From assembly GCA_025927545.1 (NCBI GenBank), contig JAICLE010000001.1, positions 1 to 64,000 of the forward strand: a stretch of DNA of 64,000 bases, read 5' to 3'. The DNA comes from Gemmatimonadales bacterium (GTDB lineage Bacteria; Gemmatimonadota; Gemmatimonadetes; Gemmatimonadales; GWC2-71-9). Below are positions 41,594 through 52,275 of the stretch, piece after piece (within the stretch, counting starts at the first letter, position 1; every line of letters begins with the position of its first letter). The notes under the pieces are model-generated. The model was given only the letters and a program-made list of their open reading frames with translations. It did not search any database and was not told where the DNA came from. Both the position numbers and the translations under genes were made by a program.

Positions 41594-42379
41594 ATGACCG
41601 CGCGCGGCACCACCTCATCCACCGGCAGTTCCAGCTCCCGGGCCTCCCGTCCCACGGGAACCGGCGGCCCCGCGGACCGCTCGCGCTCGGCCCTCATCTG
41701 GCTGTGGGAGTGGAGCAAGTCGATCGTCGTCGCGCTCGTGGTCTGGTTCTTCCTGCGGACTTTTCTGATCGAGGCCTTCCGCATCCCTTCCGGCAGCATG
41801 GAGAACACCCTGCTTATCGGCGATTTCCTGTTCGTGAACAAGGCGCTCTACGGCGCCGAAGTCCCGATCGTCCACGCCTACCTGCCGGCAGTGCGCGAGC
41901 CGGTGCGGAACGACATCCTGGTCTTCGACTCCGTGGAGGAGGAAGGGCTCAAGGTCGTGAAGCGCCTGATCGGAGTGCCCGGTGATACGCTCGCGATGGA
42001 GGCGGGCCAGCTCTACCGCGACGGGCAGCGGGTGGACGAGCCCTACGCACTGCACGGGGATCCTCACCGCTCTGAAGACCCGATCCAGCGCGCCAAGATG
42101 CGCGAGTGGCAGCTACCCCATCTGGTGCACCGCGACACCGCCACCTACCAGCCGGACCTCCACGACTGGGGGCCGATCGTGGTCCCGGCCGATTCGTTCT
42201 TCATGATGGGCGACAACCGCGACAGCTCGTACGACGGACGCTACTGGGGGTTCCTGCCCCGGAAGAACGTCCGGGGAAGGCCGCTGGTGGTGTATTTCAG
42301 CTACGATCCGAACAGTTGGAAGTCGCTGCCGTTCCTCACCGCCGTGCGGTGGGGCAGGATCTTTACCCAGCCGAAATAG
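41594..42379 (+). CDS. lepB: signal peptidase I
   Basis: EAFRIPSGSMENTLLIGDFLFVNK; VKRLIGVPGD; FFMMGDNRDSSYDGRYWGFLP. Confidence 0.95.
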   Translation: MTARGTTSSTGSSSSRASRPTGTGGPADRSRSALIWLWEWSKSIVVALVVWFFLRTFLIEAFRIPSGSMENTLLIGDFLFVNKALYGAEVPIVHAYLPAVREPVRNDILVFDSVEEEGLKVVKRLIGVPGDTLAMEAGQLYRDGQRVDEPYALHGDPHRSEDPIQRAKMREWQLPHLVHRDTATYQPDLHDWGPIVVPADSFFMMGDNRDSSYDGRYWGFLPRKNVRGRPLVVYFSYDPNSWKSLPFLTAVRWGRIFTQPK

Positions 42380-48413: not shown

Positions 48414-48524
48414 GAGGGCCTCCGAAGCTGCCTGCCTCGCCCAAAGGTAGCCCGCGGGCCGCGGGCTGGCCAATTCGTGAGCACGGCTCTGACGCCCGGC
48501 GGGTGCTTTACTTACATTTGTGTC

Positions 48525-49136
48525 ATGACATCGCCTCAGACACTCGTGGTGCGCACGTTCACGGACCGCGCCGAAGGCCTGTCGCACTTCGTGCTCCGGG
48601 CCGGCGAGGCACCTCGGCTCCTCGCCTTCGACGATGCCCTGGGTTGCCCGGTCGAAACTGCGCTGGCGGCGCTCGAGTGGACCGGGGTGGTCGGCATCCT
48701 GCTGGATGACGACATGCTTCACGCGGCGCGACTCACCAGCGAGACCGCGGCGGCCGTCATCGAGCGCAAGGGCGCCGAGGGACGCCGCTTCGTGTATCTC
48801 GGTCCCCGGCTGGACGCGCCCCCAATGGACGTGTTCGAAGGGGCCGTGCTGTTCGACGAGCCCGGCGTGAAGGCCGTAGAGTTTACCCAGCGGGCGCACG
48901 CTCTGGCCCACTTTCTCCGCGCCACCGCCGGGGCGGGAGCGCTGCTGGCTTTGCTGGGCCGGCGGGCGCCCGAGCTCCGGCACCTGCGTCGCTGGCTGGG
49001 CGCGATCATCCAGGAGCTCGACATTCCCCGCCCCCTCGTCGCCGGCTGGTTCGCCGCCAGCTCGGCCGGGTGCCTCTTTGCCAGCTCGGAGGCTGAGCCG
49101 ACGTACCGGTACGTCGAGGTCGGCCTCGAGCCCTGA
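48525..49136 (+). CDS. hypothetical protein
   Basis: 203 aa; good codon structure; ATG six nt after a TACATT -10-like element. Confidence 0.6.
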   Translation: MTSPQTLVVRTFTDRAEGLSHFVLRAGEAPRLLAFDDALGCPVETALAALEWTGVVGILLDDDMLHAARLTSETAAAVIERKGAEGRRFVYLGPRLDAPPMDVFEGAVLFDEPGVKAVEFTQRAHALAHFLRATAGAGALLALLGRRAPELRHLRRWLGAIIQELDIPRPLVAGWFAASSAGCLFASSEAEPTYRYVEVGLEP

Positions 49137-49311: not shown

Positions 49312-49745
49312 ACGCGCTCCGTTGGATGCGTGCTGGGGCCCCGAGCCTCAGTGACGGCTGGCAGAGCGGGTTCGAGCGGGATATCAGGGGAGAAGGCCGA
49401 CGCAACCAAGGGCTCAGGTCTTCGTCGATCTTGGTGATCACCCCGGCTCGAACAGGTGAAGCCAGTCGCGTGCTTCACCCGCTCCGATCTGGCGCCTCGG
49501 AGTGCAGTGCGAACGGTCGGTCCGCGACCCGATCTGACTCGCAGCGCTCGAATGGACGAACCAGGTGAGATGGCCATCCCATCTGGGGATCAAAGCCAAG
49601 GCTCCACCGCGCCCTCCCGAGCGGCGAATCAGCCAACCGGTGGCAGGTGGAAGAAGAACGGCGGCAGCAATGCCCCGACCTCGGGATAATCCATGCGTGG
49701 GACGGCCGCCTAGCCACGACTAGGCGGCCGTTCCGTTTTTCTACC
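49312..49745 (+). ncRNA. candidate structured non-coding transcript between two terminators
   Basis: No convincing ORF; internal hairpins ggtgaagc-cagtcgcgt-gcttcacc and agatgg-ccatc-ccatct; ends in a strong intrinsic terminator. Confidence 0.35.
49699..49742 (+). terminator. intrinsic terminator
   Basis: cggccgcctag-ccacga-ctaggcggccg, extended by gg(ga)/(tt)cc, followed by gttttt. Confidence 0.85.
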
Positions 49746-50742
49746 GTCTGTTGTTCGTTCCCGCTTCGTTCGCCCCCCAATCGCTGCCACCCCGGTACGC
49801 GCGCCGGCGATCAAGTTGCCATAGCGTCCGGGCGCTCACCAGCGCCTCTCCGGTGAAGTTGTCGGGATCGACGAGCGCGGCGGCCATGCTGGCCGTCTTG
49901 GCGCTGGCGTTGTCCGCGAAGTGGAGCACCTCCGCCTCGAGCGTCATCGGCGGCACCGCGGCGCCGAATTCCGGCTTGCCGTGGTGAGACGCGATGAGAT
50001 GGTGCAGGATCGTGAGCTCGCGGTCGGTACACGGCGCGGGGTTCTCCCGACCGACACGGCGGTCGAGCATGAGAAGGCCGAGGGCGACGTGGCCGAGCAG
50101 CGCGCCGCACTCCGTGACCTCGAAGGCTCCTTCCCACCGGTAGGACTCCAGCTTGCCAATGTCATGCAGCAGCGCGCCGGCAAGGACGAGCTCTGGGTCG
50201 GCGCGGCACACCTTGCCGATGGCGCGCCCGATGGCCGCGACTTCGCAGGTGTGCTTGAGCAGGCCGCCGAGCTCCGCGTGGTGCCCGGCGGTGCTCGCCG
50301 GGCACGCTTCGTAGCGTCGGCGGAAATCGTCATCGGCATAGAACAGGTCGAGCAGACGCCGGAGTCGGGGCCGCTGGACTTCGCCACGCCAGCGGTCGAG
50401 GGTGTCCCAGTAGGGGGCCACCTCGCCCACGGAGGGGAGGAGCTGGCGCCAGTCGATCGTGCCGCGCGGCAGCACCCGGATGGAGCTGACCTTGAGTTGG
50501 CGCCGCCCGTTGTACTGCCCGACCTCACCGATGACCTGGGCCACATCGCCCCGCGCGACTCCCGCGATACGCGGTTGATCCTCCGCCCAGAACGGCGCGG
50601 TAACCAGCTGGCCGTGACAATTGCCGAGCGTGAGCGTGGTGAAGCCGCCGCGGGCCGACTCGCGCTGATCGATCTCGAGCACGAGCAGCGAATCCTGCAC
50701 GCGGTCGCCGAGGGCCAACTGCTTCAGGTCGGGTGGTGGCAT
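49741..50742 (-). CDS. OB-fold plus HD-domain nuclease, YhaM-like 3'-5' exoribonuclease
   Basis: N-terminal OB-like LTLGNCHGQLVTAPFWAEDQPRIAGVARGDVAQVIGEVGQYNG; HHAELGGLLKHTCEVA; LAGALLHDIGKLESY. Confidence 0.85.
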   Translation of the reverse strand: MPPPDLKQLALGDRVQDSLLVLEIDQRESARGGFTTLTLGNCHGQLVTAPFWAEDQPRIAGVARGDVAQVIGEVGQYNGRRQLKVSSIRVLPRGTIDWRQLLPSVGEVAPYWDTLDRWRGEVQRPRLRRLLDLFYADDDFRRRYEACPASTAGHHAELGGLLKHTCEVAAIGRAIGKVCRADPELVLAGALLHDIGKLESYRWEGAFEVTECGALLGHVALGLLMLDRRVGRENPAPCTDRELTILHHLIASHHGKPEFGAAVPPMTLEAEVLHFADNASAKTASMAAALVDPDNFTGEALVSARTLWQLDRRRAYRGGSDWGANEAGTNNRR

Positions 50743-50820
50743 GCCGGAACTCGGGTGTGGGAAGTGGCCAGAAGATAGGGCCGTCTGTCTCCCGCCGGAA
50801 CTCGGCTGTAGCTTGGAGCC

Positions 50821-51762
50821 ATGGCCCCGATGCACCTGCTCGTGCTCGAGCGCGACCCCGTGCGCCGCGAGGCACTCATCGGAGTGCTGCGCGCCGCCGG
50901 CCACCATGCGGTGGCGGCGCCGGACCCCTCGGCTGCCGCGGCCGCGATCGGCCAGCCGGGGTTCGACGCGCTGGTTCTCGACCTCGGGCTGCCGGAGTTG
51001 GACCCGGCGCGGCTCCGCGAGGCGCTGGTCCCGGCCGAAGCGGCGGCGCCAGGCACGCTGGACGCAGCCGAGCGCCGGCACATTGCCCTGGCGCTCCGCC
51101 ACACCGGCGGCAACAAACGGCAGGCGGCGCTGGTGCTCGGGATCTCCCGGTCGACGCTGCTTCACAAGGTGCGCAAGTATGGGCTGGCGGCCGCTCGCGT
51201 GGTGGCGGTTACACTGGTGCTGCTCACGCAGCCGACCGCCACGAGGGCTCAGGAGACTCCGGTGCCGCCCGGGCGAGTCAAGTCCGGCACGCTGTCATTT
51301 GACGGCCACGGCACCCCCGGTGACTTCATCGGACGGACCAGCACGGTATCCGGCGAGATGACCGGCGCTAGCGGCCTGGCCGGGGTGCGGGGCTGGGTCG
51401 AGGCTCCCGTGCGGACGCTGGTGACGGGGAACGGCCGCCGCGACCGGGACCTCGCGAAATCCATGGAGCCGGAAAAGTATCCCAATTTGCGATTCGACCT
51501 GCGCGGCGTGAGGACCAGGGCGGGCACTTCCGACAGCTTGCCTGTCATGCTCGAAGGCGCCCTCAGGATTCATGGAGTAAGCCGCGACGTCGCGCTTCCC
51601 GGCTACGTGCGCGCCGAGGGAGGGGCGCTGCGGGTGCGGACCGATTTCCCACTGAACCTCAAGGACTATCGGATCGGCGGGCTGTCGAAGCTGCTCGGAG
51701 CGCTCAAGATGGACGAGCACATCGAGGTGCACGTCGACCTGACCTTTGCCCCGGGGGCCTGA
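50821..51762 (+). CDS. fusion: truncated receiver - Fis-type HTH - hydrophobic/signal segment - YceI domain
   Basis: MHLLVLERDPVRREALIGVLRAAGHHAV..DALVLDLGLPELD; LRHTGGNKRQAALVLGISRSTLLHKVRKYGL; VVAVTLVLLTQPTATRAQE; SGTLSFDGHG..FIGRTSTVSGEMTG...MEPEKYPNLRFDL (YceI). Confidence 0.75.
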   Translation: MAPMHLLVLERDPVRREALIGVLRAAGHHAVAAPDPSAAAAAIGQPGFDALVLDLGLPELDPARLREALVPAEAAAPGTLDAAERRHIALALRHTGGNKRQAALVLGISRSTLLHKVRKYGLAAARVVAVTLVLLTQPTATRAQETPVPPGRVKSGTLSFDGHGTPGDFIGRTSTVSGEMTGASGLAGVRGWVEAPVRTLVTGNGRRDRDLAKSMEPEKYPNLRFDLRGVRTRAGTSDSLPVMLEGALRIHGVSRDVALPGYVRAEGGALRVRTDFPLNLKDYRIGGLSKLLGALKMDEHIEVHVDLTFAPGA

Positions 51763-51779: not shown

Positions 51780-52202
51780 TCACGGCACAATGCGCACGCG
51801 GCCGAGTCGGGAGACGACGACCGTGCGCACCACCGCGCCGCGGCTCAGCTGGAACGACGCGTTGCTCAGCCCCATGCTCAGCCCCACCGGTGAGAAGGTG
51901 ATGCGCCGCTCGGGGCCGGCAAGCACCACCTGGCTGGCGGCCGGGCCCGGAGCGTGCCAGAACTCGGCGGCGCCCCGAGGCCGCATGGCGAGGTCGGTGG
52001 CATTCACGGTGAGCTCGACGACCTGGCTCCGGAGCACGGCGGCGATCCGCGCACGACGGTGGGCCGCGACGATCTCGTGAGCGGCGCGGTCCACGGCGAG
52101 GCTATCTGCCAGACGGCTGGCGCGGGGGAGGGCAATGCCGAAAAGCAGCCCCATGATGGCGAGGACGAGGGCGAGCTCGAGGAGGGTGGTGCCGCGTTGC
52201 AT
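51780..52202 (-). CDS. type IV pilin-like / GspH-FimT pseudopilin
   Basis: MQRGTTLLELALVLAIMGLLFGIALP prepilin-like N-terminus. Confidence 0.82.
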   Translation of the reverse strand: MQRGTTLLELALVLAIMGLLFGIALPRASRLADSLAVDRAAHEIVAAHRRARIAAVLRSQVVELTVNATDLAMRPRGAAEFWHAPGPAASQVVLAGPERRITFSPVGLSMGLSNASFQLSRGAVVRTVVVSRLGRVRIVP

Positions 52203-52236
52203 GGGTGCACGGTACCTCTGTTCACCCGCCCGATCG

Positions 52237-52275
52237 GGACCCAATTTCCGCTAGGGGCTGCCGGAAATTGCGTCC
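52237..52275. repeat. inverted repeat in a divergent promoter region
   Basis: ggacccaatttccg - 11 nt - cggaaattgcgtcc, 13 of 14 positions paired. Confidence 0.7.

Follow-up and report, generated by a model that had tools for sequence, protein, structure and literature searches.

Two related soil bacteria of the order Gemmatimonadales have merged the normally separate genes of a regulator and an exported lipid-binding protein into one coding sequence, with the export signal in its middle. In the window, the 64,000-nucleotide stretch of DNA analyzed here, the fused gene (50821–51762, + strand) is one uninterrupted frame of 313 amino acids plus stop, exactly as an initial annotation of the sequence had written it. 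Because the window has a G+C content of 69%, with no stop codon in 51% of 180-nt stretches drawn from it at random, the open frame alone is little evidence. We accept it as real, and not as an error of one assembly, because a second genome, G005 (= L002/L031), carries the same in-frame fusion, with neither copy interrupted by a stop.

The G005 contig matches JACCSZ010000445.1 in sequence and comes from a Gemmatimonadales MAG. Its fused protein is about 70% identical to that of the window, which indicates that G005 is a separate species of the same genus rather than a copy. Across searches of 101 relatives, 102 genomes of the family, 288 of the order, and 395 drawn from the phylum, the uninterrupted fusion was found in these two genomes only; the contig scan covers close relatives, and YceI–HTH (helix-turn-helix) fusions could occur in other phyla. 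We found no description of YceI joined to a DNA-binding domain in the open-licence literature.

The best of the explanations considered is that the fused protein is a precursor cut at the former YceI signal peptide, an account that, taken as a whole, we hold with about even confidence. If it is true, this is a natural case of a gene pair that has become a self-cut precursor by way of an internal signal peptide, linking protein export to transcription control, with the split relatives as ready-made controls.

Domains of the fused protein

The protein begins with a half-receiver (50821–51027, + strand; residues 1–69, including Asp54) that runs from β1 to α3 and is recognized by both Pfam and AlphaFold. 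The Pfam Response_reg profile (PF00072) matches only residues 7–65, over profile positions 2–60 of 111 and with an E value of 0.008 that lies under the curated cut-off, in line with the initial description of the receiver as truncated. A Fis-type HTH follows (51058–51186, + strand; residues 80–122). Here HTH_8 (PF02954) matches residues 80–120 of the 313-residue protein with an E value of 1.4e-11 and a score of 44.3 bits against a cut-off of 22, and phmmer also returns Fis.

The junction and a signal-peptide-like segment (51187–51249, + strand; residues 123–143), assigned from sequence and hydropathy, lead into the mature part of a YceI lipocalin (51250–51759, + strand; residues 144–313). The YceI profile (PF04264) matches residues 167–309 with an E value of 4e-13 and 50.4 bits against a curated cut-off of 23.7. 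An AlphaFold model, whose underlying alignment is shallow at eight sequences and whose mean pLDDT is 64, places β1α1β2α2β3α3 before three HTH helices, a low-confidence stretch at 124–145, and a lipocalin-like beta barrel. The best PDB matches of this barrel in Foldseek are YceI lipocalins, BcnA first (5ixh, E = 5e-8), with TT1927b and HP1286 also among the matches. Pfam and AlphaFold thus bear out the domain order originally read from the DNA.

In most relatives, the regulator is a mini-protein of 125 residues. Phosphorylation of its half-receiver is doubtful, since the domain stops after α3, without β4–β5, the acidic pair at the phosphorylation site varies, and 18 of 21 relatives retain Asp54; the fused protein does not have the full set of acidic pair, phospho-Asp, and Lys of a complete receiver. 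The half-receiver may serve in dimerization. PrrA/ActR/RegA-type response regulators likewise consist of a receiver and then a Fis-type HTH, but the fused protein differs from them in its halved receiver and unconserved acidic pair.

Comparison of the two fusions by the Nei–Gojobori method, in which dS values near 1 make the ratios rough, gave dN 0.13 and dS 0.60 for the receiver half (ratio about 0.2), 0.07 and 0.96 for the HTH (0.07), 0.26 and 1.11 for YceI (0.23), and 0.53 and 0.90 for junction residues 123–150 (0.6). These values point to purifying selection on both halves and to a junction that seems free to change, except for the RAQ retained where the cut is predicted. Conservation of the HTH is strong, and DNA binding has therefore probably been kept in the fused species.

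The signal-peptide-like junction

Cleavage is predicted after Ala143, at TRA|Q in the window and ARA|Q in G005, so the signal-peptidase-like end noticed in the initial annotation occurs in both fusions, with RAQ kept in each. The signal peptides of split YceI proteins mostly end in A|Q too, and they are similar to the fused segment in their hydrophobic core, which spans 9–10 residues in the window and about 13–15 in G005. A signal peptidase I gene (41705–42295, + strand) lies in the window about 9 kb from the fusion, and M50 site-2-type protease genes are present in the same genome. The short core, the TRA|Q/ARA|Q end, and the presence of both kinds of protease gene favor cleavage. The signal peptidase I match is the only one in this genome.

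A comparable joining of an adjacent gene ahead of a YceI lipocalin, with a split form in relatives, is known from the LcoA–BcnA (cytochrome b561–YceI) fusions of Alphaproteobacteria, in which a linker stands in place of the YceI signal peptide (PMC9113575). There the partner is a membrane cytochrome. Here, by contrast, a DNA-binding regulator is joined to a YceI that retains its signal peptide and cleavage motif, and this retention argues for cleavage.

Transcription of the regulator probably yields a leaderless mRNA. TAGCTT at 50809–50814 (+ strand), 12 nt before the ATG, is a likely −10 box of such a transcript; a TANNTT box occurs 9–15 nt before the regulator ATG at 16 of 18 regulator loci, compared with 2% in shuffles, and the start has no Shine–Dalgarno (SD) sequence. 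We claim this type of box for the regulator family only, because TAGCTT–ATG pairs across the genome of the window (27, against 25 for a reversed-pattern control) show no excess.

We infer that the fused gene makes one polypeptide from this mRNA. The former YceI signal peptide, now in mid-protein, would route the C-terminal part into the Sec pathway, and the end of the HTH, KVRKYGL..R, would supply the positively charged n-region. Cleavage of A143|Q144 by signal peptidase I would then yield free periplasmic YceI. The regulator would stay on the inner membrane face, still carrying a short hydrophobic tail, and a site-2 protease may release it from there. Several points weigh against this course of events: the fusion is known from just two species; it is unusual for a signal peptide to follow a folded domain of 122 residues, and export could be slowed as a result; and start-like codons occur within the gene at matching positions in both species.

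By analogy, the nearest precedent for a regulator cut by signal peptidase appears to be RsiV, a Firmicutes anti-sigma factor that combines a cytoplasmic regulator with an outer ligand domain and is cut first by signal peptidase and then by S2P (PMC10202637). RseP is also reported to remove leftover signal peptides. If the cut-precursor model holds, the fusion would share with RsiV a cytoplasmic regulator, a membrane segment bearing a site for signal peptidase, an outer ligand-binding domain, and later site-2 cleavage. RsiV differs in having anti-sigma and lysozyme-binding domains where the fusion has an HTH and YceI; the comparison is one of mechanism and not of ancestry, with no homology found. 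A full RsiV-like circuit, in which lipocalin export and the signal peptidase cut, perhaps under lipid control, set the release of the regulator, seems to us distinctly unlikely.

Internal starts and membrane anchoring

The main rival of a cut precursor is internal initiation, in which loss of the stop leaves the regulator with a by-product or degraded YceI tail while functional YceI is made from an internal GTG or TTG by weak initiation. We consider this somewhat unlikely. Possible GTG starts for free YceI lie in frame at 51169, 51199, and 51202 (51169–51204, + strand); the initial annotation had listed the latter two but not the first. G005 has TTG codons at residues 112 and 123. GTG127 in the window and TTG123 in G005 occupy matching positions and would each give a signal peptide starting 17 residues before the cut, but at this length the n-region lacks a positive charge. 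The GTG at 51169 would supply a charged n-region, yet the charged starts (GTG117 and, in G005, TTG112) fall at differing positions in the two species.

None of the GTG codons has a convincing SD, as had been observed at the outset for those then listed: the SD energies at 51169, 51199, and 51202 fall at the 68th, 30th, and 30th percentiles of background, and those of the G005 starts at the 63rd–80th. In split relatives that have a spacer, a good SD precedes YceI (−9.3, −12.1, and −6.6 kcal/mol), whereas the fused genes have none, a difference that favors one polypeptide without proving it. Weak SDs before YceI in several split relatives suggest translational coupling, a point in favor of internal initiation, but coupled reinitiation requires an upstream stop that is now lost. 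The genome of the window holds one further YceI gene (G000:C18), so the fused copy need not be the sole source of YceI.

The initial annotation had suggested a ToxR-like membrane-anchored sensor, an uncleaved one-component regulator in which the hydrophobic anchor stays and lipid binding by YceI alters DNA binding by the HTH. As in ToxR-type regulators, the chain would carry a cytoplasmic DNA-binding domain and an extracytoplasmic one; the N-in/C-out domain order, the positive-inside flank, and the conservation of both HTH and YceI agree with such a sensor. The core is short for a stable anchor, however, both fusions preserve the A|Q cleavage motif, and the hydrophobic core begins only about four residues after the HTH, with almost no linker between them, so that the proposal is not supported as it was stated. 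ToxR-type regulators have a winged OmpR-type DNA-binding domain, whereas that of the fused protein is HTH_8, of the Fis family. A sensor of this kind is possible but unlikely, and it is not the best reading.

Fused and split forms among relatives

In eight relatives (L003–L008, L014, and L018), the regulator and YceI genes are unfused neighbors. The regulator stops 3–8 residues past KYGL, and YceI, with its own signal peptide, starts nearby or overlaps it. The reading frame of one gene relative to the other differs among these relatives, and a programmed frameshift in the split forms was dropped for this reason. Other relatives have the regulator alone between the same neighbors (genes for an HD/OB-fold protein and GspH), with YceI elsewhere.

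The split state thus predominates, and the fusion is derived. With the regulator stop only a few residues past KYGL and the YceI start close by in split relatives, it probably arose when a small deletion in a tight gene pair removed both. This would have happened probably once, in a common ancestor of the two Gemmatimonadales species: the two fusions cluster with each other in the trees of the regulator (87/92) and of YceI (86/87), a moderate level of support at 86–87% bootstrap. Other apparent in-frame extensions upstream of YceI in the order (G152, G200, G274, G068, G070, and others) contained no HTH on reading and look to be chance open frames of high-G+C DNA.

That the fusion is an artifact of sequencing or assembly, or that it is decaying and functionless, is very improbable: the source genomes are draft MAGs, only 2 of 288 genomes in the order have it, and a stop-free junction comes easily at this G+C content, but it is common to two such divergent sequences, its junction indels keep frame, and both halves are under apparent purifying selection. 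A fusion seen in one assembly only had been named at the outset as the sign of an artifact; most homologues are indeed split, but the second species has the fused form.

The fused gene lies between two conserved neighbors, a divergent upstream gene for the HD/OB-fold protein (49741–50742, − strand) and a convergent downstream gene for a GspH-type prepilin (51780–52244, − strand). The regulator often sits between these two genes without YceI. In L028, L030, and L057, from another family of the order, YceI adjoins GspH, and no regulator was found beside it. Farther upstream, 48441–49133 (+ strand) encodes a protein without a Pfam match that is conserved in relatives at about 60–91% identity.
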